From the NCBI RefSeq assembly GCF_000832305.1, contig NZ_CP010536.1, forward strand, positions 2,914,001 through 2,978,000: DNA of 64,000 bases, written 5' to 3'. This DNA is from Cupriavidus basilensis. Lineage in GTDB: Bacteria > Pseudomonadota > Gammaproteobacteria > Burkholderiales > Burkholderiaceae. Positions 30,159-46,007 of the stretch are shown in pieces. The notes beneath the pieces are model-generated. The model did not search any database, was not told the origin of the DNA, and saw nothing but the letters and a program-made list of their open reading frames with translations. Position numbers and translations under genes: made by a program. Numbering within the stretch: position 1 is the first letter of the stretch; the number at the start of each line of letters is the position of its first letter.

Positions 30159-30174
30159 GTTTTATTAGCGAAAC
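30159..30174 (-). promoter_or_regulatory. IclR-type palindrome D (molybdenum-hydroxylase operon)
   Basis: Read on the minus strand: GTTTCGCTAATAAAAC, matching palindrome A (GTTTCACCTATAAAAC) at 13 of 16 positions. It lies about 107 bases before the Bug protein start. Candidate operator for the twin IclR regulators. Confidence 0.55.
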
Positions 30175-30218
30175 ATTAGTTCAGGAGAGGAACGCGCTAT
30201 TCATACTAGATCTACATT

Positions 30219-30232
30219 GTTGACTACTCAAC
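30219..30232. promoter_or_regulatory. Inverted repeat in the Bug-MarR intergenic region
   Basis: GTTGA-CTAC-TCAAC, the TTGA-N4-TCAA pattern often bound by MarR proteins; it lies between divergently transcribed genes. A TTGACA at 30249-30254 and an A/T-rich run follow on the plus strand, perhaps the MarR promoter. Confidence 0.35.
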
Positions 30233-30320
30233 TTACGTTAATCCCTAATTGACATATATATCTTTTTATAAATTAAAAGAGAGATTCATGACGAGAAGGA
30301 GGCAGCACATCGGAGTCCCT

Positions 30321-30377
30321 ATGAGACAATCGGCTCCGCCCCCCCCTGATCAGCCGCCGTCCGGCGGCATCTCTTGA
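30321..30377 (+). CDS. Predicted 18-residue Pro-rich leader peptide
   Basis: ATG at 30321 with GGAG five bases upstream encodes MRQSAPPPPDQPPSGGIS. Its TGA (30375-30377) overlaps a TTG (30374-30376) that opens the MarR frame, so translation of the regulator could be coupled to this peptide. The PPPP and PP runs are the kind of sequence that stalls ribosomes without EF-P. There is no protein-level evidence. Confidence 0.4.
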   Translation: MRQSAPPPPDQPPSGGIS

Positions 30378-30961
30378 AAGACATGGATCTGATGAAGCGC
30401 GCAGCCGGAACGACAACCGACACCGGCGACAAGGCAGTGCCCCCGAAAACCGACTGCCCCTGGGCGCAACTGGACGAGCAAGGCAGCGGGCTCGATGTCG
30501 ACGACTTCCTGACGACGATGCTCAGCCAGTTGGTCAACGCGCTGCGGCGCACCGTGACGCTGCCCTACGCCGAGCAGTTCGCGCTCACGGTGCCCGAGTG
30601 GCGCCTGCTGGCCCTGCTGGCGCACGCACGGCAGCTGCCCTTTGCAGAACTGGTGCTGCAATCCACATCGGATAAGGCGCTGGTGAGCCGCACGCTGCGG
30701 CTGCTCGAAGGCCGCGGGCTGGTGAAGCTGGATGCCGAGGGCAACACCCCGCGCAAGAAGCTGATCTGCAGCATCACGCCGGAAGGCCTGGCGCTGCATG
30801 AGCAAGTGATGCCGCTGGCCAGGAAGGGCCAGGCGGAGGTGATCCGGTTGCTTGAGCCGGAGGAGCGCCGAGCGATGTACCAGGCGCTGAGGAAGCTGCA
30901 CGGCCTGTGCGTGACGCCCGGGCGCGGTGACGCCGGCGGGGGCGGGGGCGAAGGCGAATAA
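30374..30961 (+). CDS. MarR-family transcriptional regulator
   Basis: About 195 residues. The winged helix lies at residues about 75-140: LTVPEWRLLALLAHARQLPFAELVLQSTSDKALVSRTLRLLEGRGLVKL, then the wing NTPRKKLICSITPEGLALHEQV. The start is uncertain: TTG at 30374 coupled to the leader peptide, ATG at 30383 or ATG at 30392. The C-terminus has a short Gly/Glu tail. It is divergent from the molybdenum-hydroxylase operon and converges on the MFS gene, so it may control either or both; effector unknown. Confidence 0.9.
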   Translation: MKDMDLMKRAAGTTTDTGDKAVPPKTDCPWAQLDEQGSGLDVDDFLTTMLSQLVNALRRTVTLPYAEQFALTVPEWRLLALLAHARQLPFAELVLQSTSDKALVSRTLRLLEGRGLVKLDAEGNTPRKKLICSITPEGLALHEQVMPLARKGQAEVIRLLEPEERRAMYQALRKLHGLCVTPGRGDAGGGGGEGE

Positions 30962-30984
30962 ATTAGCGCACACGAGAACGAACA

Positions 30985-31016
30985 AAGCCCGTGGCAGCTG
31001 GCGCTGCCACGGGCTT
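30985..31016. terminator. Bidirectional terminator between MarR and MFS genes
   Basis: Perfect 14-bp stem AAGCCCGTGGCAGC / GCTGCCACGGGCTT with loop TGGC, 24 bases after the MarR stop and 26 after the MFS stop. No long T-run. Confidence 0.7.
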
Positions 31017-31041
31017 CATATCGTGCGTCGTGCGTCGCGAA

Positions 31042-32505: not shown

Positions 32506-32624
32506 GGTGTTTCTCTTCTAAAGTATCCGAGGCAGGCAGCCGCCCCGCGCTGGCGCATTGCCGGACTGCCCGGCAAGGGCCACCACCGTTGGCGCCGCGA
32601 TGGACGCGGCGCGCGGTGGCGCGC

Positions 32625-33581
32625 TTAGAGGTCCAGGACCAGGCGCTTGCCTTTGCAGCCTGACACGCAAACCATCATGGTCTGGTTCGACTCGCGCTCG
32701 CTCTTGCTGAGCACGCCGTCGCGGTGTTCGGGTATGCCTTCGAGCACGCGCGTTTCGCACGAGCCGCATACGCCCTCCCTGCAGCTGTGCTCCACCGCAA
32801 TGCCCGCTTCGAGCAAGGCATCCAGCAAGGACTTGCCTGCGGGCACTTTCAGCTCGCTACCCGTGCTTGCCAGCGCCACGGTGTACTCGCCGTCCTGCAC
32901 CGCCGCCACCGACGGGTCGGCGGCGAAGCGTTCGATATGCACTTCGGGATAGCCATGGCCGGCGCAGGCGGCTTCGAAGGCATTCAGCATCGGGCCCGGG
33001 CCGCAGCAATAGAAGTGCGTGCTGGCAGCTTGCCCGGCGAGCAGCGCGGACAGGTCCGGCGGGCTGCCCGCCTCGTCGTCGAAGTGCATGCGCACCGCGT
33101 CGCCATAGGCGGCCAGTTCGTCCGCGAAGGCGGCTTCCGCGCGCGAGCGTGCGCAGTAAAGCAACGTGAAGGAACGCCCGAGCTCATGCAGCCGACGCGC
33201 CATGCACACGATGGGCGTCACGCCGATACCGCCGGCCACCAACACCGTGTGAGCCGCATCCTCATCCAGCGCGAAGTGGTTGCGCGGCGCCGCCACGGTG
33301 AGCGTGCTGCCCACCCGCAGTTGCTCATGCACGTAGCGCGAGCCGCCACGGCTGCCGCGGTCGAGCAGCACGCCCACCACGTAGCGGTCGCGCAGTTCCG
33401 GCGCGCCGCACAGCGAGTAGCTGCGCACCAGGCCATTGCCCAGATGCAGGTCGATATGCGCGCCCGGCGCGTACTCGGGCAACGCATGCCCGTGCGGATC
33501 GCGCAGTTCCACGCTGACGATGCCGCGCGCTTCGAAACGCATGGCCTGCACGCGCAGGCTCAGGGATTGGCTGGTACTCAT
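32625..33581 (-). CDS. Rieske oxygenase reductase (phthalate-dioxygenase-reductase type)
   Basis: 318 residues with FMN domain first (RSYSLCGAPELRDRY), then NAD domain (HTVLVAGGIGVTPIVCMARRL, YCCGPGPMLNAFE), then a C-terminal plant-type 2Fe-2S domain (EHSCREGVCGSCETRVLEG ... MVCVSGC). This order defines the VanB/PDR class, which feeds electrons from NADH to a Rieske oxygenase with no separate ferredoxin. Its partner is the oxygenase at 41829-42884 in the same operon. A 9-bp repeat array separates it from the upstream dioxygenase gene. Confidence 0.93.
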   Translation of the reverse strand: MSTSQSLSLRVQAMRFEARGIVSVELRDPHGHALPEYAPGAHIDLHLGNGLVRSYSLCGAPELRDRYVVGVLLDRGSRGGSRYVHEQLRVGSTLTVAAPRNHFALDEDAAHTVLVAGGIGVTPIVCMARRLHELGRSFTLLYCARSRAEAAFADELAAYGDAVRMHFDDEAGSPPDLSALLAGQAASTHFYCCGPGPMLNAFEAACAGHGYPEVHIERFAADPSVAAVQDGEYTVALASTGSELKVPAGKSLLDALLEAGIAVEHSCREGVCGSCETRVLEGIPEHRDGVLSKSERESNQTMMVCVSGCKGKRLVLDL

Positions 33582-33614
33582 GGCACTTCCTTCGGTTGCT
33601 TCGTGTTGCTAGTC

Positions 33615-33713
33615 TTGCTTGCGTTGCCTGCGTTGCCTGCGTTGCTTGCGTTGCTTGCGTTGCTTGCGTTGCCTGCGTTGCCTGCGTTGCCTGCGTTGCC
33701 TGCGTTGCCTGTA
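33615..33713. repeat. 9-bp tandem repeat array inside the catabolic operon
   Basis: Eleven units of TTGCYTGCG (last one degenerate), filling most of the 146-base gap between the extradiol-type dioxygenase stop and the reductase start. The array could form a C/G-asymmetric structured leader in the mRNA. Confidence 0.92.
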
Positions 33714-33727
33714 CTGCTACGCCGTGC

Positions 33728-34726
33728 TCAGCGCTTCTCCGTCAGGAACTTGCCCTGCGGGCCGCCCGCGTTCTTCTGCCTGCGCGTATTGCCATCCAGC
33801 CCGCCTTCCACCGCCCACTCGGCGAACATGGTCGGGCCCGGCTCGAAATCGCGCGGCTCCCAATCGGCATCCAGCTGGTCTTCATCGGCGTAGTACTCGA
33901 TCAAGCCGCCGGCCGGATTCTTGAAGTACCAGAAATACGCTGACGAAATCGGATGCCGGCCCGGGCCGAGCTGCGTATCCCAGCCGCTGCGCGACACATG
34001 CAGGCCGCCGCCGAACACCTCGTGGATGTCGCGCACGGTGAAGGCTACATGGTTCAGCCCGCTCTTGGCCTGCGGCAACTGCAGCAGGAACAGGTCGTGG
34101 TGGCCGCCGTCCGGCGCGCAGCGCAGGAAGGCGCCACGGCCCGGATAATGGTCCGACGGCACGAAGCCCAGCTTCCCGGTGTAGAAACGCTCGGTGGCGA
34201 CCACGTCCTTGACGAAGAAGACCACGTGCCCTACCTCGATCGGCGTGGCGCGTTCGTAGATCGGGCTGCGCTGGTTCATGCGCGGCTTGTCGTTCCACGT
34301 GTTCATCGCGGCGCACTCCACCTCGACCTCGCGCTTGCGGGTCAGCTGGAAGCGCACGGCCAGGCCGTTCGGATCCGTGCAGCCAACGCGTTCGCCTTGC
34401 TCGCCCTGCACGCCCTGCACGCCGTGCTCGCCCGTGCTGACAAAGCCCGGCTCGGCGCGGATGGCATCCGCGATCCGGTCCAGCGCAGCTTGCGTGTCCA
34501 CGCCCCACACCACCTCGCGCAACGTCGGGCCGTCTTCCATTGCCGCCGGCAGTGCCGGGTCGTCGGTGCTGCGCACCAGCACGCGGCAGCCGTTCAGCGT
34601 CTCGAAATCCAGCCCGGCGGCATCCTCGCGCACCAGCGTGAGGCCCCAGTCGGCGAAGAAGCGCCGGCAGGCGTCCAGGTCGTCGGCACCGTAGACGATT
34701 TCGTCGATGCCCAGAATCGTGTTCAT
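33728..34726 (-). CDS. Two-domain VOC / extradiol-type ring-cleavage dioxygenase
   Basis: 332 residues: two vicinal-oxygen-chelate modules (about 1-135 and 160-290). The C-terminal module keeps the metal triad of type I extradiol dioxygenases: His167 (EVGHVVFF), His226 (LNHVAFTV) and Glu277 (GGLIEYYADE). The N-terminal module has no such triad. ATG at 34726 follows AGGAGAGGG. A Gly/Gln-rich insert (about 99-112, HGVQGVQGEQGE) between the last strands of module 1 is unusual. With the Rieske oxygenase and SDR upstream, cleavage of a catechol-like intermediate is the natural role. A glyoxalase/epimerase role is not excluded. Confidence 0.85.
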   Translation of the reverse strand: MNTILGIDEIVYGADDLDACRRFFADWGLTLVREDAAGLDFETLNGCRVLVRSTDDPALPAAMEDGPTLREVVWGVDTQAALDRIADAIRAEPGFVSTGEHGVQGVQGEQGERVGCTDPNGLAVRFQLTRKREVEVECAAMNTWNDKPRMNQRSPIYERATPIEVGHVVFFVKDVVATERFYTGKLGFVPSDHYPGRGAFLRCAPDGGHHDLFLLQLPQAKSGLNHVAFTVRDIHEVFGGGLHVSRSGWDTQLGPGRHPISSAYFWYFKNPAGGLIEYYADEDQLDADWEPRDFEPGPTMFAEWAVEGGLDGNTRRQKNAGGPQGKFLTEKR

Positions 34727-34777
34727 TACCCTCTCCTGCTGTGTCGCTTTTGCACCGTCCAATGTCGTCTCGCTCAC

Positions 34778-36250
34778 TTAGTTGGCCCACGGCAGCGGTT
34801 GTTCATGCATGCCCCAGTACACGCTCTTTTGCTCCATGTACTGCAGGATCCCCAGTCGCCCCTTCTCGCGCCCCAGCCCGCTGTCGCGCCAGCCGCCGAA
34901 CGGCGTCGAGATCGAGAACTGCTTGTACGTATTGATCCACACATTGCCGGCCTGCACCGCACGCGCAAAGCGCCACGCGCGCTTGTAGTCGCGCGTCCAT
35001 ACGCCCGCCGCCAGCGCGTACACGCTGTCGTTGGCCTGTGCGATCAGATCGTCCTCGTCGTCGAAGGCCATCGCCACCAGCACCGGCCCGAAGATTTCCT
35101 CCTGGCATACGCGGGCGCTGTTATCCAGCCCCTCGATGATGGTCGGCGTGTAGAAGTAGCCGTTCTCGCAGCCCGCCACCGCAGGGCGGATGCCACCCGT
35201 GCGCAGCTGGCCGCCTTCGGATACGCCAAGCGCCACATACGATTCGATCGAGTCGCGGTGGCGGTCGCTGATCAGCGGTCCCATCTGGGTGCGCTCGTCG
35301 GCCGGATCGCCCACGCGCAGGCGCGCCGCGCCCTCGGCCAGGCGGTCCATGAAAGGCTCATACAAGGAACGTGCCACGAACAGGCGCGAACCCGCGATGC
35401 ACGATTCGCCCGAGGAACTGAAGATGCCGTAGAGCACGCCGTTGACCGCGTGGTCCAGATCCGCGTCGTCGAACACCATGGTGGGCGACTTGCCGCCCAG
35501 CTCCAGCGATACCGGCATCATCTTGTCGGCAGCGATGTGGGCGATATGGCGTCCCGTGGTGGTGCCACCGGTGAAGGACACGCGGCGCACCAGCGGGTGC
35601 TTGGTAATGGCGTCACCGATCACCGAGCCCTTGCCCGGCAGCACGCTGATGAGGCCCTTGGGCACGCCGGCTTCCTCGCAGATGGCGGCGAGTTCCAGCG
35701 CCATCAGCGGCGTGATCTCGGCGGGCTTGATCACCACCGCGTTGCCGGCGGCCAGCGCGGGCGCCAGCTTCTGCGCCTCGCTGGCGATGGGCGAATTCCA
35801 CGGCGTGATCGCCGCCACCACGCCCATGGCTTCATGCACGCTCATGGTGAGGAAATCACCACGCGCGGGCGTGAGGGCCTCCTCCAGGGTTTCGCAGGCC
35901 GCCGCGAAGAACTGGAACGTGCCGGCGGCGCTGGCCACCAGCGCGCGCGTCTCGCTGATGGGCTTGCCATTGTCCAGGCGCTGGCGCTGAGCCAGCGGCT
36001 CGGCGCGCGCGCGGATGAGGTCGGCCACGCGATGCAGCACCGCGGCACGCTCGTGCGGCTTGCGTTGCGCCCAGCCGCTGGTGAGGAACGCGCGATGCGC
36101 GCCCTGCACGGCCTCTTCCACGTCGTCCAGGCTGGCCGCGTTCAACTCCGCGACGACCTCGCCGGTGGCCGGGTAGCGCGTGGCGTAGCGCTCGCCGCCG
36201 CCCAGGCGCCACTGGCCTGCGATACAGATGGGGAGAATCTCTTGCTTCAT
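34778..36250 (-). CDS. NAD(P)-dependent aldehyde dehydrogenase
   Basis: 490 residues. ITPWNSPIASEAQKLAPALAAGNAVVIKPAE binds the cofactor, SLELGGKSPTMVFDDADLD holds the general-base Glu, and SSGESCIAGSRLFV the catalytic Cys (about 285). It is close to betaine-aldehyde and hydroxymuconic-semialdehyde dehydrogenases. It follows the aspartate dehydrogenase and ThDP decarboxylase genes, so it probably oxidises the aldehyde formed by that decarboxylase, or a ring-cleavage semialdehyde. Confidence 0.93.
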   Translation of the reverse strand: MKQEILPICIAGQWRLGGGERYATRYPATGEVVAELNAASLDDVEEAVQGAHRAFLTSGWAQRKPHERAAVLHRVADLIRARAEPLAQRQRLDNGKPISETRALVASAAGTFQFFAAACETLEEALTPARGDFLTMSVHEAMGVVAAITPWNSPIASEAQKLAPALAAGNAVVIKPAEITPLMALELAAICEEAGVPKGLISVLPGKGSVIGDAITKHPLVRRVSFTGGTTTGRHIAHIAADKMMPVSLELGGKSPTMVFDDADLDHAVNGVLYGIFSSSGESCIAGSRLFVARSLYEPFMDRLAEGAARLRVGDPADERTQMGPLISDRHRDSIESYVALGVSEGGQLRTGGIRPAVAGCENGYFYTPTIIEGLDNSARVCQEEIFGPVLVAMAFDDEDDLIAQANDSVYALAAGVWTRDYKRAWRFARAVQAGNVWINTYKQFSISTPFGGWRDSGLGREKGRLGILQYMEQKSVYWGMHEQPLPWAN

Positions 36251-36271
36251 GATGATTGCCTTGCTGCCTGC

Positions 36272-37078
36272 TTAAATCGACATGGCGTGGGCACGGTTGC
36301 CCAGCGCACGCACCACGCTGAACACCGTCAGCGCCGAAGTCTTGGGGTTCGCCGCCAGCGGCTTGCCGCGCATGGTCAGCTCGAAACCACCGAAGGCACC
36401 GCGCGCTTCCACGTGGTGCACGTTTTCATCCACGCCCGGATCCGCCAGCAGCTTGACCTGCGTGTGGTCCAGCCCGAGGCCGGCCACCGACAACGTAGCC
36501 GCCACATTGGCGTTCTTCGGATAGAGCCGCGCGGCTTCGCGGGCGGTGCCCTCGAAGATCACCGTGGATTCGGTCAGCGCGTCGAGGTCGAACAGTGCCT
36601 CGGCCGGCGTGTCCTTCCACGCGCCGGGCGGCTTGCGCCCGGTGTAGACCACCGAGTCCAGCCCGCCCACGCGCGCTGCCGCCAGTGCGTCGATGGCACC
36701 GATGGCACCGGAGAGTAGCTGCACCTGCGTGCCGCCGCGCCGTGCCGCGGCTTCCAGCCGCTCGGCCAGGCCCGGCTCGGAGAGCGCGCCCACCGACACC
36801 ACCATGCAGGCGATGCCACGCTCCAGCGCCGGCACGATGTGCTCCTCCAGCGCATGGTGGCCGGCGCACTCCACCAGCAGGTCAGGCCGTCCATCGGCCT
36901 GGCTCAGGCAGGTGGCAACCCGTGCGTGCGGCGCCAGCGCGGAGACATCATGGCGGGCCTGGTCCATCTGGGCCTCGGGCACCACCACCACGTCGAACAC
37001 CACGTCTGGATCGCTCTTGAGCAGCTCGAGCACACCGCGCCCGATCGCTCCGCATCCCACCATCGACACGTGCAGCAT
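36272..37078 (-). CDS. L-aspartate dehydrogenase (NadX type)
   Basis: 268 residues. Rossmann motif VGCGAIGRGVLELL (7-20), conserved ECAGHHALEEH (70-80), LYPKNANVAATLSVAGLG (185-202) and the HHVEARGAFGGFE region (221-233) with the catalytic His of the family. NadX-type enzymes interconvert aspartate and oxaloacetate through iminosuccinate with NAD(P)H; activity has been shown for the Ralstonia eutropha and Pseudomonas aeruginosa members. Its operon has no NAD-biosynthesis genes, so a catabolic role, or another amino acid as substrate, is likely. Confidence 0.88.
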   Translation of the reverse strand: MLHVSMVGCGAIGRGVLELLKSDPDVVFDVVVVPEAQMDQARHDVSALAPHARVATCLSQADGRPDLLVECAGHHALEEHIVPALERGIACMVVSVGALSEPGLAERLEAAARRGGTQVQLLSGAIGAIDALAAARVGGLDSVVYTGRKPPGAWKDTPAEALFDLDALTESTVIFEGTAREAARLYPKNANVAATLSVAGLGLDHTQVKLLADPGVDENVHHVEARGAFGGFELTMRGKPLAANPKTSALTVFSVVRALGNRAHAMSI

Positions 37079-37090
37079 GTTGCGTCTCCC

Positions 37091-38812
37091 TCAGGCGGTC
37101 ACAGTGCTGCGTTCGGCCGCGCGTGCGGTCTTCTCAGCGTCGGCGTCAGCTTCCTTGTTGACCGGCGGGCCTGCGAACGCGGTCTTGAAAGTGCCGATGG
37201 ACAGCATGTCGATCTCCAGCAGGAACGGGCCGGATTCGATGGTGGCTTCTTCCAGTGCGGCGCCCACGTCGGCCAGGTTGCTGACGCGGCGATGGCGCAG
37301 GGCCAGCGATTGCGACAGTTGCGCATAGTCCGGCGTGTGGAGGTCCACGTAGTGGCGCCGTCCGCCGTATTGCGCGTCCTGGATGTTCTTGATCACGCCA
37401 TAGCCCTTGTCATTCATCAGCACGAAGACCACGTCGGCGCGCTCCTGCACGGCGGTAGCCAGTTCACCCAGGTTCAGGATGAAGCCGCCATCGCCGGCCA
37501 GGCAGAATGTCTTCTTGCCGGAAGCCGTCACTGCCGCGCCCACGGCGGCGCCGATGCCCATCGCCAGGCCCTGTCCGATGCCACCGCCCAGCGCATGCAC
37601 GCCGGCACGCGAGTCGAAAATGCGCAGTTGGCGATTGCCCCAGGTGCTATTGGAGACGGTCACGTCGCGCACCCAGTTGAAATTGCGGCCGACCGCGCCT
37701 TGCAGCGCTTCCACCAGCGCCGAGTATGGGCCCAGGCCATCGATCAGGCCACTCATGGCGACTTCGTGCGCGCCGCGCAGGTCGGCGGCAAAGTTCGGGT
37801 CCACCTTGAGCTTGCCCTCCAGGCGGTCGGCCAGGCCATCGAGTGCCAGCGCTGCATCGCCGCTGGCGAAGTAGTCGCTCTGGTAGCAGCGGCCTTCGGC
37901 GGACGCATCGGCATCCACGCGGAACAGCGGGCGCGGCAGCTTCAGTTCGTACTTCAGCGTTTCATTGCCGCGCAGGCGCGAGCCCACCACCAGCATGGCG
38001 TCGCAGGTTTGATAGAACTGTTCCACCGGCTTGTGCAGGTTGAACGCACCCAGCGAGCGAGGATCGTCTTCGGCCACGATGCCGCGGCCTTGCGTGCTGG
38101 TGACCACGCCAAAGCCCAGCGCCATCAGGCGCTTGACCTGCGCGCCGGCGTGACGTGCGCCGCCACCCAGCCACAGCAGCGGGCGCTTTGCCTTGGACAG
38201 GCGCTCGGCCAGTTCGTCCAGCGCGTGGGCAGAAGGAACATGGGTGGGCACCGCCAGCGGGCGCAGGTCGGTTGGCATCGGGATCAGCGCGGCCTGGATA
38301 TCGATGGGGATTTCCACGCTGACAGGGCCGGTCGGCGCGGTCAGCGCGGTTTGCACGGCGAGCTTGATGGTGCTCAGCGCGGTATCGGCGCTGCGGATGC
38401 GGAACGCGGCCTTGGAGATGGCCTTCAGCATGGTCAGCTGGTCCGGCGCCTCGTGGATGTAGGCCAGGCTCTGGTCCAGGTACGGCGTTTCGATCTGTCC
38501 GGTCAGGTGCAGTAGCGGCGTGCCGGCGGTCAGTGCTTCGACCATGGCGCCGGCGGCGTTGCCCGCGGCGGTGCCGGTGCTGGTCAGGCACACGCCCAGG
38601 CCACCGGTGGTGCGGGCGCAGGCATCGGCCATATTGGTGCCGCCGGCTTCGCCGCGCGCTGGCACGAAGCGGATCTTGCCGCGCTCGCCCATCGCGTCGA
38701 GGATGGGCATGTTGTGGATCGAGATCACGCCAAACGCAGCCTTGACGCCGCATTGTTCGAGGAAGGCGGCGATGGCGTAGCCCACCGTGACTTGTTGCTG
38801 TTCGTTACGCAT
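37091..38812 (-). CDS. Thiamine-diphosphate-dependent 2-oxoacid decarboxylase
   Basis: 573 residues with three ThDP-enzyme domains. The activating Glu is at 55 (VPARGEAGGTNMADACAR) and the ThDP/Mg motif starts at GDG 440-442 (CLAGDGGFILNLGELATA), with Asn 467 completing it (VLMNDKGYGV). Residue 34 region SIHNMP replaces the His pairs of pyruvate decarboxylases. It is nearest in style to benzoylformate decarboxylase/acetolactate-synthase-like enzymes. It overlaps the degenerate SDR gene by 8 bases. Substrate unknown; carboligation is an alternative activity. Confidence 0.88.
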   Translation of the reverse strand: MRNEQQQVTVGYAIAAFLEQCGVKAAFGVISIHNMPILDAMGERGKIRFVPARGEAGGTNMADACARTTGGLGVCLTSTGTAAGNAAGAMVEALTAGTPLLHLTGQIETPYLDQSLAYIHEAPDQLTMLKAISKAAFRIRSADTALSTIKLAVQTALTAPTGPVSVEIPIDIQAALIPMPTDLRPLAVPTHVPSAHALDELAERLSKAKRPLLWLGGGARHAGAQVKRLMALGFGVVTSTQGRGIVAEDDPRSLGAFNLHKPVEQFYQTCDAMLVVGSRLRGNETLKYELKLPRPLFRVDADASAEGRCYQSDYFASGDAALALDGLADRLEGKLKVDPNFAADLRGAHEVAMSGLIDGLGPYSALVEALQGAVGRNFNWVRDVTVSNSTWGNRQLRIFDSRAGVHALGGGIGQGLAMGIGAAVGAAVTASGKKTFCLAGDGGFILNLGELATAVQERADVVFVLMNDKGYGVIKNIQDAQYGGRRHYVDLHTPDYAQLSQSLALRHRRVSNLADVGAALEEATIESGPFLLEIDMLSIGTFKTAFAGPPVNKEADADAEKTARAAERSTVTA

Positions 38813-39608
38813 GACGGGAAAGTCCTCCGGAAATATCGATGTGGCTGCCCGTGGTGTACGAAGACAACGGCGAGGCAAGGAACAGGATCGCGCGTGCGGC
38901 TTCCTGCGGCAGGCCAAGACGGCCAAGTTGAATATGCTTTTGCTGCGCCAGGCGCGCGGTCCACGCGGCCCAGTCGAGGTCGCGCTCGGCATCCGGGCGC
39001 GCTTCGAAACGTCGGCGCCACTGGCCCGACTCGACCAGGCCGAGCAGGATGCCGTTGACGCGGATGCCCTTGGGGGCGAATTCGGTCGCCAGCGAGCGCA
39101 CCAGGTTATGCACGCCGGCACGCGCCGCGGACGTCGCCACCATATGCGGCTCGGGTTGCACGGCCAGCAGCGAGTTCACGCAGACGATGGCACCGCTGTC
39201 CGAGCGCTCCAGTTGCGCAAGGAACGCACGCGTGGCATGGATCACCGAGAAGAACTTGAGCCGCAGCTCTTCGAGCCAGGCTGCGTCCTCGGTGCTCGAG
39301 AACGTGGAGACGCGCCCCTGCCCTGCGTTATTGACCAGCATGTCGGCGGGGCCGAGCGCGGCCTCGCTGGCGGCGGCAAAAGCGGCTACCTGTGCGGGGT
39401 CCAGCACGTCACAGGCAGCGGCGTACAGGCGGGCATCGGGGAAGCGTGCGCACAGATGGCTTTGCGCTTCGCGCAGCCGCGCTTCGTCGCGGCCACACAG
39501 CGCCACGGCAGCGCGCGATTCCAGCAGTAGTTCGACGGTGGCCAGGCCAATGCCCGAGGATCCACCCGTGACGACGGCAACCTTGCCGTCGAGTTCAATC
39601 ATGGACAT
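38805..39608 (-). CDS. SDR-fold protein lacking the catalytic Tyr and Lys
   Basis: 267 residues with an intact cofactor site (VTGGSSGIG, about 11-19; NNAG) but, at the place of Y-x3-K, the sequence HMVATSAARAGVHNLVRSL: aligned to a normal AYSASKAG, Tyr becomes Thr and Lys becomes Arg. The Ser (VNSLLAV) remains. It may be a non-classical SDR or a pseudoenzyme. ATG at 39608 has GGGAG eight bases upstream. It overlaps the ThDP decarboxylase and starts 5 bases after the IclR stop. Confidence 0.85.
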   Translation of the reverse strand: MSMIELDGKVAVVTGGSSGIGLATVELLLESRAAVALCGRDEARLREAQSHLCARFPDARLYAAACDVLDPAQVAAFAAASEAALGPADMLVNNAGQGRVSTFSSTEDAAWLEELRLKFFSVIHATRAFLAQLERSDSGAIVCVNSLLAVQPEPHMVATSAARAGVHNLVRSLATEFAPKGIRVNGILLGLVESGQWRRRFEARPDAERDLDWAAWTARLAQQKHIQLGRLGLPQEAARAILFLASPLSSYTTGSHIDISGGLSRHA

Positions 39609-39613
39609 CGTTC

Positions 39614-40444
39614 TCACTCCCGATACAGGTTGACCACCTTGCCGTGCTCGCGCGGGCGGTAGTCCAGCAGGCGAGACAGCTCGCCCGCGGTGTCTCTGAC
39701 TTTCTCTTCCATCATGTCCAGTTGCTCCGGATCGATGCGCGAGGCCGGGATGGTCACGCCCAGCGCCGCCACCACCTTGCAGGTACGATCCCGCACCGGT
39801 GCCGCGATGGTCGAGATGCTGGCCTCGAAGAACGCTTCTTGCAGCACCACGCCGCGCTCACGGTCGCGCTGCACCATCTCGAACAGTTCTTCGACCGTAC
39901 GCGGCGTGCTGGGCGTGAACACTTCCAGTTGCGGCTCCGGATAGAGCTGGCGCAACTCGGCCAGCGTCAGGTCTTCGAGCAGCACGCGTCCGAGCACGGT
40001 GGCGTGCGCCGGCAGGCGGGTCCCCACGGTGACCGAGCTGCTGAACGGCGTGGGCGCCACCGACTTGGCCACATAGACAATCGAGCGGCCGTCGCGCACG
40101 ACCAGGTTGCACGGGTAGCGAATGTCATCACGCAGGCGATCCAGCAGCGGGCGCCCCAGCTCGGTGAGCTCCAGCGACGCCAGGTACTCGAAGCCCAGGC
40201 GCAGCACCGCCATGCCGAGGCGGTAGTCGCGGCCGCCGTCGGTGCGCTCGACAAAGCCCATCATCTCCAGCGTGGCCAGCAGCCGGAACACCGTGGAGCG
40301 GGGCACCTTGAGCCGGCGCGCCAGGTCGGCCGCCGACAAGGTGCGGTCGCGGCGGCTGAATTCAGCCAGCAGGCGCAGGCCGCGCTCCAGTCCGGGCACG
40401 ATGTACTTGTCCTGGGTGTCTTCCGACAGGCGTTCTTGAGTCAT
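39614..40444 (-). CDS. IclR-family transcriptional regulator 2
   Basis: 276 residues, paralogue of the IclR protein at 23579-24400, with identical DNA-recognition segment VPRSTVFRLL and effector-domain stretches such as RSIVYVAKSVAPTPF and GTRLPAHATVLGRVLLEDLTLAEL. ATG at 40444 (MTQERLSEDTQDKYIVPGL). Lying in the middle of the twelve-gene Rieske operon, it is probably autoregulated with it. Confidence 0.93.
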   Translation of the reverse strand: MTQERLSEDTQDKYIVPGLERGLRLLAEFSRRDRTLSAADLARRLKVPRSTVFRLLATLEMMGFVERTDGGRDYRLGMAVLRLGFEYLASLELTELGRPLLDRLRDDIRYPCNLVVRDGRSIVYVAKSVAPTPFSSSVTVGTRLPAHATVLGRVLLEDLTLAELRQLYPEPQLEVFTPSTPRTVEELFEMVQRDRERGVVLQEAFFEASISTIAAPVRDRTCKVVAALGVTIPASRIDPEQLDMMEEKVRDTAGELSRLLDYRPREHGKVVNLYRE

Positions 40445-40512
40445 GAGAGGTTCGTGTTTCACTGGATCCGGCGCACGGCCGCGGTTGCATTGGCGCGCCG
40501 GCTTCCCGCTTT

Positions 40513-41049
40513 TCAGCGCTTGACCTTGGTGAGCGGATGCTCGGGCGGGTACGTCGGCGTGATCGGCTTCTTGGCGCCGAGCATCACGCACATCAGCGCG
40601 TCTTCCTCGCCGATGTTGATCTCCTCGCGGTACACGCCGGGGGGCACCGAGACCAGGTCGCGGTCGGTCAGGATGGTTTCGAAACGCTCGCCGTCCTTTT
40701 CCAGGATCAGCTTGATCTTGCCGCGCATGACGAAGAAGACTTCTTCCACGTCCGTGTGCAGGTGCGACGGGCCTTCGTGGCCGGCCGGGATGATCATGGT
40801 CGAGAACGTGAAGTTCTCGGACGGCACGGTATTGGTGTCGGTGGCCACGCCGGTGCCGCCGGTGCCGAGGTAACGCATCTGCGCACGGCGGTACTTGGGA
40901 TCGTAGTCGGCCTGGAACTTCAGCGCGTCCCAGTCGTAGCGGCGGGTGGAGAAGCGCGCGACGCGGCTCTCCATCCACTGGTCGAAGGAAGCGCCGGACG
41001 GCTGCTCCCAGGAACGCTTGATGTTGTCTTGTTGGGAAAGATCGCTCAT
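40513..41049 (-). CDS. Cupin-domain protein of the Rieske operon
   Basis: 178 residues with one cupin barrel: motif 1 PAGHEGPSHLHTDVEEVFFVMRGKIKLIL (about 87-115; His-x-His and Glu metal ligands present) and a motif 2 region lacking a clear second His (VPPGVYREEINIGEEDALMCVML). It may be a ring-cleavage or decarboxylating metalloenzyme, or a small-molecule binder. Starts 69 bases upstream of the IclR gene. Confidence 0.85.
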   Translation of the reverse strand: MSDLSQQDNIKRSWEQPSGASFDQWMESRVARFSTRRYDWDALKFQADYDPKYRRAQMRYLGTGGTGVATDTNTVPSENFTFSTMIIPAGHEGPSHLHTDVEEVFFVMRGKIKLILEKDGERFETILTDRDLVSVPPGVYREEINIGEEDALMCVMLGAKKPITPTYPPEHPLTKVKR

Positions 41050-41065
41050 TTGGATTCCTTCTAGC

Positions 41066-41836
41066 TCAGTGCATGACGAAGCCGCCGTTGACGGCCAGCG
41101 TCTGGCCCGTCACGAAGCGGGACAGGTCGGAGAGGGCGAACAGCACGGCCCCGGATACATCCTCGGGTAGCTGCTCGCGGGAGATCGCGCGTTGCTCGCG
41201 ATAGAGGTCGCGCCTCTTCTGGGGCACGTATTCGGTTGCCTCTACCAGGGTCAGCCCCGGTGCGACGGCGTTGACGGTGATCTGGTCGTCGCCCAGCTCG
41301 CGCGCCAGCGAGCGGGTCATGCCGATGATGGCGCTCTTGCTGGCCACGTATGCCAGCAGGTTGGGCGCGCCCCACAGCGGCGTGTCAGACGCCAGGTTGA
41401 TGATGGCGCCACGGCCCGAGGCGCGCAGCGCCGGCAGGCAGGCGGTGGTCATCAGCCAGGTGCCGCGCACGTTGATATTCATCACGCGGTCCCAGGTGGC
41501 GATGTCGATGGCGCTGGCGTCGCGGCCGCCGGAGTCTGTCACCGCGGCGTTGTTGACCAGGCCGTCCAGGCCGCCGAGCCCGGCCGCCGCAGCGGTGGCG
41601 CACGCGCTCACCGATTCGGGGTTGCCCAGGTCGAGCACGAACGGCAGCACCTTCAGTCCGCGGGCCTGCAGCGCAGCGGTTTCCTCAACCAGACGGTCCG
41701 CGAGGATGTCGGCCATGGCGACCGCGCCGCCGGCTTCGGCAATCGCGGTGGCAAAAGCCAGGCCAAGCCCACGCGCGGCGCCGGTCACCAGCACGCGCCG
41801 GCCAGCCAGCAGGTTATGGCGATCGATCTCAGGCAT
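41066..41836 (-). CDS. Short-chain dehydrogenase, probable dihydrodiol dehydrogenase
   Basis: 256 residues, classical SDR: VTGAARGLGLAFA, NNAAV, Ser in NLASDTPLW and Y-x3-K in LAYVASKSAI. ATG at 41836 (MPEIDRHNLLAG) overlaps the Rieske oxygenase stop by 8 bases, so the two are translationally coupled. That coupling suggests it rearomatises the cis-dihydrodiol made by the oxygenase. Confidence 0.86.
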   Translation of the reverse strand: MPEIDRHNLLAGRRVLVTGAARGLGLAFATAIAEAGGAVAMADILADRLVEETAALQARGLKVLPFVLDLGNPESVSACATAAAAGLGGLDGLVNNAAVTDSGGRDASAIDIATWDRVMNINVRGTWLMTTACLPALRASGRGAIINLASDTPLWGAPNLLAYVASKSAIIGMTRSLARELGDDQITVNAVAPGLTLVEATEYVPQKRRDLYREQRAISREQLPEDVSGAVLFALSDLSRFVTGQTLAVNGGFVMH

Positions 41837-42884
41837 GGCTAGCCACCCCGCCAACCGGCTTGAGCATGGCAACGGGCTCGTCGGCCACTTCCTGGTCGGC
41901 ACGGCGGCGCAGCAGGCGGCGCACGCGGGTGATGCCGACATCGTGCTGGTACAGCGTTTCGTGCTCGCGTGCGTTCGGCGCCATCATTTCCAGCACCACG
42001 CGGTCTTGCTCCAGCACGTCCCAGTGCAGGCCCTCCAGGCGGTTGCGGTACAGGAAGCGCCAGACATCGCGCTCCCAACCCTGCACGTGGCGGGTGCGCC
42101 AGAAGAACACCATGCAGTGCTCCTCATCCACCGGCGTGGCGACGCCAACGATGCCGAAGGGACCGCCAGGGCCCACCTTGGCGCGATAGGGGATGGCCAG
42201 GCGCAACCACATCGTGCCGGTTTCGCCGAACTCCACCCAGTCGAAGTTCACGCCGCGCTGGCCGGTCTTCTCGAACACCAGGCCGGTGTCGGTCTCGCGC
42301 ACGGCCATCACAGCCTGCTTTTCGCCGCTGGCCATCGAGTGCGACACCGCGTGCAGGTAAGCGCCGTGCATCGGGTCCATGACGTTGTCGATGGCGTAGC
42401 GGTAGTTGCAGTCCCAGTGCGCCACGCACAGGAAGCTGGTGTGCTCGTCGCTTTCCAGTTCTTCCGGCAGGCGCAGCGCATCGGCCTGCGCCGGAGCGCG
42501 CTCACCGAACCACAGGAAGATGGCACCGGCTTTTTCCTGCACGGGGTAGCTGCGCACGCAGGTCTTGCCTTCGAGCGGGCAGCTGTCCACGGCCGGTACG
42601 CTCTTGACCTGGCCATCGCCACCCACTTCCACGCCGTGGTACCAGCAGGCCACGCGGTCGCCAAGGTTCCAGCCCATCGACAGGCGCGCGCCGCGGTGCG
42701 GGCAGCGATCTTCCAGCGCGTGCACCTGGCCTTCGCCATCTCGCCACAGCACGATGTTCTGGCCCAGGCGCGTAATGCCGACCGGTGCGTGCGTGACCGA
42801 CCATGCGGCCGATACCGGATACCAATAGTTGTGCAGGCCGGTGTTCAGGCGCGCCTCAGCACGCGCTTGCTTGTTCGATTCCAT
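41829..42884 (-). CDS. Rieske non-heme iron oxygenase, terminal component
   Basis: 351 residues. Rieske cluster ligands Cys61/His63 (RCPHRGARLS) and Cys80/His83 (ACWYHGVEV); mononuclear iron ligands in DNVMDPMHGAYLH (His173, His178), as in single-subunit alpha-only oxygenases of the phthalate/vanillate/phenoxybenzoate group. It probably uses the reductase at 32625-33581. Ring dihydroxylation or O-demethylation are both possible; the coupled SDR and extradiol-type enzyme favour dihydroxylation. Confidence 0.93.
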   Translation of the reverse strand: MESNKQARAEARLNTGLHNYWYPVSAAWSVTHAPVGITRLGQNIVLWRDGEGQVHALEDRCPHRGARLSMGWNLGDRVACWYHGVEVGGDGQVKSVPAVDSCPLEGKTCVRSYPVQEKAGAIFLWFGERAPAQADALRLPEELESDEHTSFLCVAHWDCNYRYAIDNVMDPMHGAYLHAVSHSMASGEKQAVMAVRETDTGLVFEKTGQRGVNFDWVEFGETGTMWLRLAIPYRAKVGPGGPFGIVGVATPVDEEHCMVFFWRTRHVQGWERDVWRFLYRNRLEGLHWDVLEQDRVVLEMMAPNAREHETLYQHDVGITRVRRLLRRRADQEVADEPVAMLKPVGGVASHA

Positions 42885-42995
42885 TGTTTGCTCTCTTGCG
42901 GGTACCGGATCGGATCGCTCTTTCGAGGGGCGCCTGATTGCACTGCCCTTCGCGACGCAATCGCTTTGATGTTCTTGAACTGCGTGGTGCCTCGT

Positions 42996-43301
42996 TCAGG
43001 CGCCCAGGCGACGCATTTCGGCGAGGAAACGCTCTTCTGTCCAGGCCTGGCCATCCGCGCCCAGCAATCCCGCCTGGTTGAACGAACGCACGATGTCTTC
43101 CGGGCTTTTCGCACCCGATTCGAAGGCGGCCTCCAGCGCATCGCCCAGCGCGTCTTCATAGGCGGTGGGCATGGCGGCGCGGGTCTGCCACACGATGTTG
43201 GGCACCTTGCCGGGCTGCTCGATGTGGCCCTTGCCGGCGACATTGTTCGGAGCCGGACGCTCCCACGGCGCCAGATTCGGGTTGTATGCGAGGTTTTCCA
43301 T
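42996..43301 (-). CDS. Small protein with recombinase-like helix-turn-helix
   Basis: 101 residues; ATG at 43301 (MENLAYNPNLAPWERP) with AAGGAG upstream. The C-terminal ~35 residues, SPEDIVRSFNQAGLLGADGQAWTEERFLAEMRRLGA, have the pattern of the serine-recombinase HTH (LNxxGhxxxxGxxWTxxxhxxhL). There is no catalytic recombinase domain. It is the first gene of the Rieske operon, right behind palindrome A. Function unknown: a DNA- or RNA-binding accessory factor, or an oxygenase partner. Confidence 0.75.
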   Translation of the reverse strand: MENLAYNPNLAPWERPAPNNVAGKGHIEQPGKVPNIVWQTRAAMPTAYEDALGDALEAAFESGAKSPEDIVRSFNQAGLLGADGQAWTEERFLAEMRRLGA

Positions 43302-43347
43302 TGCGCTACTCCTTTCCCTTTTTGCCAACCGGCTAACCCAGCGTTTT

Positions 43348-43363
43348 GTTTCACCTATAAAAC
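43348..43363 (-). promoter_or_regulatory. IclR-type palindrome A (Rieske operon)
   Basis: GTTTCACCTATAAAAC, 47 bases before the ATG of the small HTH protein. It is nested in a larger inverted repeat, GCGTTTT (43341-43347) ... AAAACGC (43360-43366). Confidence 0.6.
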
Positions 43364-43440
43364 GCTGATTTAAATACTGAACACAGACACCACTATAGAC
43401 AACGAAACTTCAAAAATTGACTGGGGTTTACCCTTCGGAT

Positions 43441-43472
43441 ATGCCGATGCCACGAGAACGTGGCATCGGCAT
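43441..43472 (-). terminator. Hairpin after the alpha/beta hydrolase gene
   Basis: Perfect 14-bp stem ATGCCGATGCCACG / CGTGGCATCGGCAT, loop AGAA, 51 bases after the hydrolase stop. No T-run. Confidence 0.55.
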
Positions 43473-43522
43473 CGGCGCGACAGCCTGAGGCGGGTGGGTA
43501 CGAGGCAGCAGGAAGGGGAAGG

Positions 43523-44410
43523 CTAAGCCGCGGCAAGCCCGCGGCGAATCCATCCCGCGACACGGCTGGCCTGCTCCACATAGCAGGCATGCCCGGCATC
43601 CGGGATCAACTCGAACGGCAAGGCAAAGCGCTCCGCTAGCGCCGCGCACCCGGGCGGCGGCGTCACGACGTCCAGCGCGCCGCAGCCAACCTGCGCCCTG
43701 ACGCCCTGCCCCCGGCGCCCGAGGTAATCGTCAATGGCATCGCCGCACAGCATCGCCACCGCCTGCCGGTAACCGTCCGGATCCAGCCGGCGCATATTCC
43801 AGCGCACCCACGCTTGCATGTCGGCGCTGGCCGCGGCGCTCAGCAGGCGGCCGGGACCCCGCTCGGCCAGGCCTTCCACGCCCACCGCCGCCAGCGCTTC
43901 GAGCCGCTGGCGCGCCACATCCCTTGCCTTGTCCTCCTTGCCGGGGCCGCCGTATCCCTGCGCCGGGCTAAGCAGCAGCAACTGCGCGGGCAGCAGCGCC
44001 GGGCTAGCCTCGGCCACATAGGCGGCCGCCATCAACGCGCCGAGCGAGTGCCCCACGATCACATCGGGCCGTACGTCCAGGGCGCGCATCAGATCCTGCA
44101 GGCGCAGCGCGTAGTCGGCCGCCTTGGGCGCCGCGATGGGCAGGGCCTGCGAATTGCCATAGCCGGGCGCATCCCACGCAATCACGCGCGCGTGCGCCGC
44201 CAGCAGGCTTGCGCACGACAGCCAGGAGGCCGCGCCAGAACTGATGCCGTGCAGCAGCACCACCACAGGCCCGTGGCTGCCGCCGCACCGGTAGGCGAGC
44301 GGCGCGCCGCCGCGGCCGGCGGCTATGCGCCGCTCGCTGAAGCCGCTATCGAGTGCGCGGAGCAACGCTTCATCCGGCTGGAGTGCCCGCGTCGGATTAT
44401 TTTGTTCCAT
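43523..44410 (-). CDS. Alpha/beta hydrolase
   Basis: 295 residues. Oxyanion HGISSGAASW, nucleophile elbow VGHSLGALMAAA (Ser about 122), and the acid/His pair near DVVTPPPG and DAGHACYVEQ. It resembles carbon-carbon hydrolases and lipases of aromatic pathways, so hydrolysis of the ring-cleavage product is plausible. Start chosen as ATG at 44410 (MEQNNPTRAL). A TTG at 44431 is in frame, and neither has a Shine-Dalgarno. The ATG lies inside palindrome C. Confidence 0.85.
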   Translation of the reverse strand: MEQNNPTRALQPDEALLRALDSGFSERRIAAGRGGAPLAYRCGGSHGPVVVLLHGISSGAASWLSCASLLAAHARVIAWDAPGYGNSQALPIAAPKAADYALRLQDLMRALDVRPDVIVGHSLGALMAAAYVAEASPALLPAQLLLLSPAQGYGGPGKEDKARDVARQRLEALAAVGVEGLAERGPGRLLSAAASADMQAWVRWNMRRLDPDGYRQAVAMLCGDAIDDYLGRRGQGVRAQVGCGALDVVTPPPGCAALAERFALPFELIPDAGHACYVEQASRVAGWIRRGLAAA

Positions 44411-44419
44411 ATATGAAAC
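44404..44419 (-). promoter_or_regulatory. IclR-type palindrome C (hydrolase gene)
   Basis: On the minus strand GTTTCATATATGGAAC; it covers the proposed ATG of the hydrolase. The adjoining AAACTATAGTTT (44416-44427) is itself a perfect palindrome. Confidence 0.5.
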
Positions 44420-44909
44420 TATAGTTTGCAAATAAAACTTAAGAAATATAGACCGCCTGAATCTGGAAATTGATCCGGGTTAACCCCCTGCAAAAAAATT
44501 CGGTCGGGCCCGGCTCTCCGCCGGCGTTGGCGCGCCCGCAAATCCCCTTTTTGGCGCCACGGCCTTGCGCAGCCTTGCATACCAATACAGGCGCGGCTCC
44601 CCGCCATGGCGGCCGCTCGCCCGCCCTCCTCGCCGCTGCGCAGCATGGCGCGCAGCGGCACCGTTCTGGTGCGAAACACGCGTCGCGTCTCCACATCACT
44701 AGGGATTACCCACCCATGTATTTCCCGAAATGACCAGCTATATTTTGCTTGTTGTTTCTTATGTAGTTTGATGTTTTACCTATAAAACACAAGAAGCAGG
44801 AAAGTGCGCCTTACGGTATGCATATACCCAGCTCGAAGATGGCCTGACGAAGCGCTGCAACGCCAACCAACCGACACGGCGGAAAAGGAAAAGGAAGAGG
44901 AAACGAACG
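44411..44909. other. Hydrolase-porin divergent intergenic region
   Basis: About 500 bases with no supported gene. It holds palindromes C and B near its two ends. The middle (44430-44760) shows nothing I can name. Confidence 0.5.
44773..44788 (+). promoter_or_regulatory. IclR-type palindrome B (porin/Bug unit)
   Basis: GTTTTACCTATAAAAC, 122 bases before the porin ATG; a single base differs from palindrome A. TATAAA inside it could be a -10 element. Confidence 0.6.
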
Positions 44910-46007
44910 ATGAAACCTGGACGGATTGCACTGGCTGCCCTTGCAGCCGCAGTACCCATGCTGGCCTCGGCCCAATCGACGGTGACGCTGTATGGCGTCG
45001 TCGATACCGGCATCGAGTATGTGAACAATGTTGGCGTGGCGAAAGACAACTTGGCCCGCATGAACACCCTGACGGGCACGGTGCCGTCGCGCTGGGGCAT
45101 CCGCGGCACGGAAGATCTCGGTGGCGGGCTCAAGAGCCTGTTTGTGCTCGAATCCGGATTCGCTCCCGATTCCGGCACCTCCAACCAGGGCGCGCGCCTG
45201 TTCGGCAGGCAAGCATTGGTGGGACTCTCCGGACCCTGGGGCCAGGTCGCCCTGGGCCGGCAGTACACCATGCTGTTCTGGGCCACGCTGGACCCTGACA
45301 TCCTCGGCCCCAACGTGTACGGCTCGGGCTCGCTCGACAGCTATCTGCCGAACGCGCGCGCCGACAACGCCGTTTCCTACAAGGGCACGTTTGGCGGCTT
45401 CACGGTGGGTGCCACCTATAGCTTTGGCCGCGACACGGTGAACGCGGGCCCGAGCCCGGCCGGCGCCAACTGCGCGGGCGAGAATGCGGCTGACAGCAAG
45501 CAATGCCGCGAATGGTCGGCCCTGCTCCAGTACGACAACAAGTGGTGGGGCGTGGCCGCGGCCTACGACTCGCTGCGTGGCGGGCCTGGCGCGTTTGGCG
45601 GCCTGACCAAAAGCAACCTGACGGACGACCGTCTCTCGCTCAATGGCTACGTGCTGCTGTCCAAGACCAAGATGGGCCTGGGCGTGATCCGCCGCGACAA
45701 TGACGGCAGCCCCACGCCGCGCAGCGAACTCTGGTATGCGGGCCTTGCATATGACATCACGCCGGCGTTCACGCTGGCCGGCCAAGTCTACTACCTCAAG
45801 TACCACAACAGCGACAACAAGGCGATGCTGTACGCGCTGCGTGGTACCTACGCCTTCTCCAAGCGCACCTCCGTGTACGCCACAGCTGGCTACATCGACA
45901 ACGGCGGCCAGCTCGCCCTGTCGGTCAGCGCTGCCCAGACGGGTTCCAACCCGAAGCCCGGCGGCAACCAGCTGGGCACGATGATCGGCATCAAGCACAC
46001 GTTCTAA
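44910..46007 (+). CDS. Gram-negative 16-stranded porin
   Basis: 365 residues. Signal peptide ends ASA-QS; mature start QSTVTLYGVVDTGIEYVNN is typical of the Burkholderiales general porin family (Omp32-like), with TLTGTVPSRWGIRGTEDLGGG and a terminal LGTMIGIKHTF whose last Phe is the outer-membrane assembly signal. GGAAGAGG precedes the ATG. It is followed by a Bug binding protein, suggesting one uptake unit across outer membrane and periplasm. Confidence 0.95.
   Translation: MKPGRIALAALAAAVPMLASAQSTVTLYGVVDTGIEYVNNVGVAKDNLARMNTLTGTVPSRWGIRGTEDLGGGLKSLFVLESGFAPDSGTSNQGARLFGRQALVGLSGPWGQVALGRQYTMLFWATLDPDILGPNVYGSGSLDSYLPNARADNAVSYKGTFGGFTVGATYSFGRDTVNAGPSPAGANCAGENAADSKQCREWSALLQYDNKWWGVAAAYDSLRGGPGAFGGLTKSNLTDDRLSLNGYVLLSKTKMGLGVIRRDNDGSPTPRSELWYAGLAYDITPAFTLAGQVYYLKYHNSDNKAMLYALRGTYAFSKRTSVYATAGYIDNGGQLALSVSAAQTGSNPKPGGNQLGTMIGIKHTF

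Follow-up and report, generated by a model that had tools for sequence, protein, structure and literature searches.

Regulators of the IclR family recognize motifs made of GTT...AAC half-sites, with group-1 boxes of 17-18 bp, and tandem sites 18-22 nt apart have been described for the transcription factors of 94 IclR groups and related to tetramers (Suvorova and Gelfand 2021, PMC8222616, in the part of that paper used here). The sites of PcaU, PobR, and HmgR have an extra half-site (PMC8222616, same part). PheR, an IclR repressor of Sphingobium, is reported to act on both the uptake and the catabolism of an aromatic compound, phenanthrene (excerpt of PMC13273656), while the excerpt of PMC6449761 concerns other IclR regulators. 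Here we analyze 64,000 nucleotides of Cupriavidus basilensis (contig NZ_CP010536.1, positions 2,914,001 to 2,978,000, hereafter the window), in which four similar 16-bp palindromes stand before four putative transcription units. These palindromes are predicted to be the downstream halves of tandem operators for one lineage of IclR proteins, represented in the window by the paralogs IclR1 and IclR2.

The IclR family and the tandem arrangement are already known, and the predicted operator is a slightly short variant of the group-1 motif. It shares with the group-1 motifs of PMC8222616, as the consulted part presents them, GTTYC-type half-sites in many of its arms, the tandem spacing, and a position close to gene starts, but differs in having a 16-bp box and in pairing two boxes that are not equally long, one of 15 and one of 16 bp. 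Neither Cupriavidus nor Ralstonia is mentioned in the main text of PMC8222616, and the group might be in its supplementary tables. PcaU, PobR, and PcaR, regulators of 4-hydroxybenzoate and protocatechuate degradation, resemble the system as its nearest curated family and in their GTT...AAC-type boxes, and among solved structures the Pca-regulon regulator 8eju ranks second as a relative of IclR2. In contrast to those systems, the palindrome here is 16 bp long without a CGAT core, the predicted position downstream of the -10 box is that of a repressor, there are two paralogs, and the gene set is different. The two proteins score 176.5 and 179.4 bits against the PcaR/PcaU/PobR subfamily (TIGR02431), below its cut-off of 284.75, and they may work like these regulators without being filed as members. 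The marked units look made for the uptake and breakdown of a ring-shaped compound, the same coupling as in PheR (PMC13273656, excerpt) but in a different bacterium and a different pathway. No published description of this cluster or regulon was found in the titles and abstract openings searched.

The four palindromes are the following, with the way in which each was recognized:

30159..30174, minus strand: downstream palindrome of the BugA/molybdenum-hydroxylase operator, GTTTCGCTAATAAAAC (strict genome match)
43348..43363, minus strand: downstream palindrome of the Rieske-operon operator, in operon sense GTTTTATAGGTGAAAC (strict genome match, alignment)
44404..44419, minus strand: downstream palindrome of the hydrolase operator, GTTTCATATATGGAAC (symmetric pattern, alignment)
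44773..44788, plus strand: downstream palindrome of the porin/Bug operator, GTTTTACCTATAAAAC (strict genome match, alignment)

A preliminary description of the window had placed all four 16-mers correctly, in position and in strand. The close similarity that it saw among the Rieske, porin, and BugA sites is real, with pairwise differences at 1, 3, and 4 positions rather than the 1-3 given. The sites are imperfect palindromes in this genome, perfect forms such as GTTTTATATATAAAAC being found in relatives. Its statement that nothing else in the window resembles them overlooked AGTTTGCAAATAAAAC at 44423-44438, which has 3 mismatches and contains the second box of the hydrolase operator. The palindromes are far above chance. 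Allowing up to 3 mismatches, we count 6 matches to the consensus GTTTYRCYWATAAAAC in the window; shuffled sequences average 0.47, and none of 100 has as many as 6. The pattern GTTTNNNNNATNNAAC matches exactly the four sites (shuffle mean 0.07, four reached in 0/100). Both patterns were derived from the four sites themselves. Across the 8,421,483 bases of the genome (where the window is G000:C1:2914001-2978000), the strict consensus GTTTYRCYWATAAAAC has 3 exact matches, every one inside the window. Loose matching is uninformative, since with up to 3 mismatches the consensus gives 73 matches and its reversed control 133. Seven distinct sites in the genome fit the symmetric pattern GTTYYRNNNATRRAAC, four of them within a 14.6-kb span of the window, against 5 matches of the reversed control. 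Equally good matches elsewhere are few: the three extra GTTYYRNNNATRRAAC sites lie at C2:639472, 5' of a Bug/TctC-like gene and itself a plausible regulon promoter, at C2:1305428, and at C2:3785619.

Each palindrome is only half of the predicted operator. We scanned nine promoter sets for the box pattern GT[TC][TC][ACT] at offsets 8 to 59, and in 8 of the 9, half or more of the rows have a second box whose start precedes the palindrome by exactly 19 bp (100% in seven sets and 89% in the hydrolase set). The only other offset shared by two sets, 37, occurs in the homologous Rieske and Ralstonia operon sets. The resulting tandem, a 15-bp upstream and a 16-bp downstream box with centers about 19.5 bp apart, falls within the 18-22 nt described for tandem IclR sites. 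Many arms fit the group-1 half-sites GKTYCRY/RYGRAMC (GTTTCAT, GTTCCAT); in others the fifth base is T (GTTTTAC, GTTTTAT), and the porin site of this genome is an example. The upstream boxes and the predicted promoter elements are:

30179..30193, minus strand: upstream box of the BugA operator, GTTCCTCTCCTGAAC, 4-bp spacer, start 19 bp upstream of the palindrome
30203..30208, minus strand: probable BugA -10, TAGTAT (region conserved in alignment)
30226-30231, minus strand: probable BugA -35, TTGAGT, 17-bp spacer to the -10
43368..43382, minus strand: upstream box of the Rieske-operon operator, GTTCAGTATTTAAAT (alignment, offset scan)
43392..43397, minus strand: probable Rieske-operon -10, TATAGT (alignment, composite pattern)
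44408-44410, minus strand: predicted hydrolase ATG, inside the downstream palindrome
44424..44438, minus strand: upstream box of the hydrolase operator, GTTTTATTTGCAAAC (alignment, offset scan)
44445..44450, minus strand: probable hydrolase -10, TATATT (composite pattern)
44754..44768, plus strand: upstream box of the porin operator, GTTTCTTATGTAGTT, with a left arm and a degenerate right one
44739..44744, plus strand: probable porin/Bug -10, TATATT (composite pattern)

The TATA of the -10 starts 34 bp before the palindrome in 90-100% of the Rieske, porin, and Ralstonia rows and is 3 bp closer to it in the hydrolase promoter of this genome. No -10-like box was recognized in the iclR1 and g10 porin sets. 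With a presumed start about 7 bp after the -10, the tandem would span approximately +1 to +38, a repressor position; in the BugA promoter (TTGAGT-N17-TAGTAT) it would lie at about +4 to +38. Since the hydrolase operator holds the predicted ATG, one of its arms would also code for the first residues. The preliminary description had found half of each operator, the palindrome, and had missed the tandem box, the promoter plan, and a fifth unit described below.

This position of the tandem just downstream of a conserved -10 box suggests repression, which we consider the probable effect of IclR on the units. The opposite sign has some basis. The best NCBIfam match is the PcaR/PcaU/PobR subfamily, below its cut-off, and since such proteins include activators, this counts against repression. 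The IclR pair could bind the operators as an activator, or as activator and repressor, like PcaU/PobR/PcaR-type proteins; these are the nearest curated family, the IclR family includes activators and dual regulators (PMC8222616, part used here), and the Rieske, hydrolase, and porin promoters have no clear -35 on inspection. Activation is nevertheless unlikely, as the tandem lies downstream of the -10-like box wherever this box was recognized, an unusual place for an activator, and as the operon of a distant genus has TTGACT or TTGACC, N17, and TATAAT directly before the boxes (by inspection).

The sites are conserved at orthologous promoters, a comparison that the preliminary description had suggested making. 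In Cupriavidus they recur at the corresponding promoters, and in Ralstonia upstream of the oxygenase operon. A single scan of GTDB contigs yielded 52 loci, of which 45 belong to close relatives (Cupriavidus, Ralstonia, or entries labeled Burkholderiaceae bacterium). The strict symmetric pattern precedes BugA in 17 of 18 loci (two of them, L038 and L049, overlap on one contig) and the Rieske operon in all 14 loci with this region in view (11 of them Ralstonia; in L038 it is not in view). In 13 loci iclR comes after the MFS/marR end of the cluster without BugA, and in 10 of these the pattern stands directly 5' of iclR. For promoter alignments we used 20 regions from genus genomes, the window, and three earlier loci (24 loci), and ungapped alignment around the palindrome gave 22 Rieske, 21 hydrolase, and 24 porin rows. 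Some genomes contribute two rows, and the offset scan took 20, 19, and 22 distinct rows, respectively. Further away, three loci of one other genus, whose IclR is 53-56% identical and has the helix PRTTVFRLL, carry GTTTCACCAATGAAAC before a unit that runs into homologous SDR (short-chain dehydrogenase/reductase), cupin, hydrolase, and iclR genes. In the one examined closely (L123), the unit is headed by ABC-transporter-like genes rather than a Rieske gene, by inspection.

Two further features emerged from these alignments. A large inverted repeat at the Rieske site (AGCGTTTT/AAAACGCT) was rejected as a conserved feature, as it occurs in the C. basilensis-like rows and is absent from the Ralstonia rows and L072. 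Eight Ralstonia loci have a second palindrome, e.g. GTTTCGCATACGAAAC or GTTCCACCTATGAAAC, downstream of the operon (near 17754-17780 in L042, L043, L045, L046, and L048; at 19174 in L050, 19136 in L061, and 19084 in L078), and in 7 of these 8 (not L050) a weak porin match (29-31%) follows the reductase. This palindrome is possibly another target of the same IclR.

If an IclR owns the sites, the two would be expected to occur together. Among 60 genomes of the genus, 48 encode an IclR2 match at E <= 1e-60 (IclR+). A composite pattern, CTATANT-N18-42-palindrome, is found in 48 of the 60, namely in 47 of the 48 IclR+ genomes and 1 of the 12 IclR- genomes, and its reversed control in 0/60 (Fisher p 4e-10, which overstates independence as the species are related). 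We also searched a family sample of 349 genomes with the tight 16-mer GTTTYAYYWATRAAAC. This has matches in 36/40 IclR+ versus 0/10 IclR- genomes of the same genus, and in g24, which is Ralstonia by matching coordinates, in 15/15 IclR+ and 0/1 IclR- genomes. The presence of the site follows the presence of this IclR lineage in the genomes compared, and an IclR of this lineage very probably owns the sites. The few genome matches, the conservation at orthologous promoters, this co-occurrence, and the absence of the helix core from the 26 other IclR loci compared (see below) together support the proposal of the preliminary description that the four sites are operators of one IclR regulon.

A number of results weigh against this assignment. 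The only IclR+ genome without a composite match (G047) is 54% complete, and an IclR- genome (G004) has a composite match without support. The tight 16-mer is missing from four IclR+ genomes, each of which does have composite matches. In other genera the tight 16-mer is found at about control level (19/283 versus 24/283 for the reversed control); four of these 19 genomes carry GTTTCACCAATGAAAC, of which three were examined. A looser pattern matches 59 of 60 genus genomes and gives no separation of IclR+ from IclR-. The sole BugA miss (L054) has a site with one mismatch, and L037, L040, and L041 have neither a strict nor a 2-mismatch site between marR and iclR. At -19 the g10 operon set has GATCC, not GTYYY (0/2). 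The 16-bp spacing is 1-2 bp below the published group-1 classes of 17-18 bp, which have W3-4 spacers; the upstream boxes are about 15 bp long. Finally, two genomic matches of C. basilensis itself, L031 and L032, are without support.

Duplicated promoter DNA, or AT-rich promoter sequence arising by chance, could produce similar sites with no regulator at all, and the sites do lie in AT-rich promoters of a GC-rich genome. Against this, the boxes hold their positions even though much of the surrounding sequence varies from species to species, and the sites are absent together with this IclR. Chance or AT-richness is rejected by the shuffles, the genome controls, and the IclR co-occurrence, and we consider an origin without a regulator extremely improbable.

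A different owner could be the MarR-family protein encoded divergently from BugA, as marR adjoins the BugA or iclR1 sites in many Cupriavidus loci and a MarR-like gene lies near a site on replicon 2 (by inspection). The features concerned are:

30374..30961, plus strand: MarR-family gene divergent from unit A, probably a separate regulator of the BugA promoter
30219..30232, unstranded: separate palindrome GTTGACTACTCAAC, probable operator of the divergent MarR gene, overlapping the BugA -35

Ownership by MarR predicts that the site stands only beside marR, and in 11 of 11 site-carrying Ralstonia loci the stretch covered, which reaches at most about 10 kb from iclR in either direction, lacks any MarR match at E <= 1e-25. 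L040 and L041 have marR, yet both kinds of site are missing. In addition, the boxes and their spacing resemble IclR motifs, and marR has a conserved palindrome of another kind at its side, AAGTTGAGTNGTCAAC in the BugA set and the core of it in the iclR1 set. We rejected MarR as owner of the sites, which is highly improbable. GTTGACTACTCAAC is itself conserved beside marR in the BugA set, where this probable MarR operator would be a second layer of control.

Both IclR proteins contain HTH_IclR (PF09339) and IclR_C (PF01614) above the Pfam cut-offs, and as the preliminary description stated, they are encoded inside two of the marked units, IclR1 in the run of unit A and IclR2 in unit B. They are 83% identical to each other, and the nearest other IclR of the genome is 36% identical to IclR2. 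The recognition helices had been called identical. This holds for the core PRSTVFRLL but not for the next residue, which is A or T. The core is absent from the 26 other own-genome IclR loci compared (L131-L159 without L131, which is IclR1, and without L147 and L148, which gave no row in the helix comparison). The genome has at least 53 HTH_IclR matches, with 150 of 531 candidates scored. In a tree of 56 IclR rows, with long branches and weak inner forks, the two lineages stand apart in the C. basilensis group.

Only one of the paralogs might use the sites, with the other recognizing something else: the sites are retained in the Ralstonia genomes and in G015, where a single copy is seen, and IclR1 and IclR2, which have diverged by about 17%, belong to separate lineages within the C. 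basilensis group. The identical helix core, the single type of site before the units of both genes, and the two IclR matches listed in 44 of the 48 IclR+ Cupriavidus genomes make such a division of labor doubtful, if still a realistic alternative. A different IclR, with helix NRVTVMRLL and about 34-38% identical to IclR2, recurs some 1.5-6 kb beyond IclR1 in several loci (L052, L054, L055, L058, L060, L063-L067, L069, L071, L073-L076, L079-L081), and the genome of C. basilensis encodes one of this type on replicon 2 (L132).

Replicon 2 also contains a probable fifth unit. The promoter at C2:639393-639487 combines an element X (see below), CTATATT, a box 19 bp upstream, and the palindrome GTTTTATATGTAAAAC, and stands before a Bug-like gene (promoter and gene, G000:C2:639393-640558, L114); MarR-, SDR-, enoyl-CoA-hydratase-, and acyl-CoA-dehydrogenase-like genes are nearby, named by inspection. 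Homologous stretches in G003 (92% identical) and G005 (88%) retain the perfect palindrome GTTTTATATATAAAAC, and similar promoters precede genes matching BugB in G040 and G006. L117, L118, L161, and L162 support a Bug-headed fifth unit. No IclR HTH is listed between C2:593447 and C2:786475, among the 150 of 531 candidates scored, and regulation of this unit would thus be in trans.

Other matches outside the cluster are of a different kind. In the C. basilensis genome, L031 (C2:1305428), L032 (C2:3785619, at a DNA-ligase-like gene by inspection), and L004 (C1:57345, 1 mismatch) have no visible regulon context and were set aside. By inspection, the genes that follow a match in G015 (L160) are transporter-like. 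L163, within an open frame or at its border, appears to be a chance match; L164 falls within the 3' end of an open frame and immediately ahead of a CoxG-like match. The matches L127-L129 in other genera have no cluster beside them. L119, L121, and L122 share a separate AT-rich element, GTTTTA-N4-TAAAAC near GAGTACGTACTC-like motifs, unrelated to the cluster.

The Rieske, hydrolase, and porin promoters of this genome have an additional element X, GGG-N4-CCC, 26-27 bp before the -10:

43424..43433, minus strand: Rieske element X, GGGTAAACCC, center near -44 of the presumed start
44477-44486, minus strand: hydrolase element X, GGGTTAACCC (element X scan)
44702-44711, plus strand: porin element X, GGGATTACCC (element X scan)

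X combined with CTATANT occurs 5 times in the genome and its reversed control never; 4 of the 5 occurrences are regulon promoters, including the replicon-2 promoter, which did not define the pattern. X alone (AGGGWWWNCCC) occurs 107 times, a count in which some sites appear on both strands, and its reversed control 28 times. Given this enrichment, X is probably not confined to the regulon and may be recognized by a wide-acting regulator. We tentatively consider a promoter with two keys, in which X, near -44 of promoters with a -10 and no good -35, would bind an activator acting beyond the regulon, and IclR1 and IclR2 may form mixed tetramers on the unequal 15- and 16-bp boxes. Across species the full form of X is found in 22/22 Rieske and 23/24 porin rows and in 6/21 hydrolase rows, and the low hydrolase count weighs against this idea.

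In the mechanism that we propose, an IclR tetramer would sit on each tandem just downstream of the predicted start (about +1 to +38) and block transcription, with IclR1 and IclR2 binding alone or mixed. A compound of the pathway would release IclR, and at least five promoters would open together: those of the BugA/molybdenum-hydroxylase/IclR1 unit, the Rieske and ring-cleavage operon with IclR2, the hydrolase, the porin/Bug unit, and the Bug-headed cluster on replicon 2. If the iclR genes are transcribed with their own units, the loop would be autoregulated. At the BugA promoter, the MarR protein would probably act through its own palindrome over the -35.

The genes of the window that belong to this arrangement are listed below; gene order suggests that each unit is one operon.

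26705..30052, minus strand: first two genes of unit A, a Bug/TctC receptor (BugA, 29072-30052) and the large subunit of a molybdenum hydroxylase (26705-28999)
24585-25370 and 25360-25836, minus strand: further genes of unit A toward IclR1, CoxG and a 2Fe-2S subunit, respectively, with an FAD subunit between them named by inspection only
23579..24502, minus strand: IclR1 (HTH_IclR and IclR_C), final gene of the BugA/molybdenum-hydroxylase run; the true start may lie inside
32625..43301, minus strand: unit B, a small protein (named by inspection only), Rieske oxygenase, SDR, cupin, IclR2, SDR, thiamine diphosphate (ThDP) enzyme, aspartate-dehydrogenase-like protein, aldehyde dehydrogenase (ALDH), glyoxalase/extradiol-type protein, and ferredoxin-type reductase
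39614..40486, minus strand: IclR2 (HTH_IclR and IclR_C), within the Rieske operon; range as searched, the true start may lie inside
31042-32505: MFS (major facilitator superfamily) gene beyond unit B
43523..44410, minus strand: unit C, an alpha/beta hydrolase
44910..47077, plus strand: unit D, a porin (44910-46007) and a Bug/TctC receptor (46097-47077)

Searches of solved structures did not name the substrate of the pathway, and a protein search with the Rieske oxygenase gave only generic names among the 120 listed of 2962 relatives. The genes would fit a ring-hydroxylated, possibly N-containing aromatic compound as substrate, and a kynurenate- or quinaldate-like route is one speculative candidate.

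The analysis provides a concrete, testable predicted operator and regulon for a catabolic cluster for which we found no description, and whose IclR is encoded in 48 of 60 sampled Cupriavidus and 15 of 16 Ralstonia genomes. The predicted regulon would link the molybdenum hydroxylase with the oxygenase operon, and a further target is suggested on the second replicon. A pair of paralogs on one operator, if both bind it, would be a natural case in which to ask why duplicated regulators persist.

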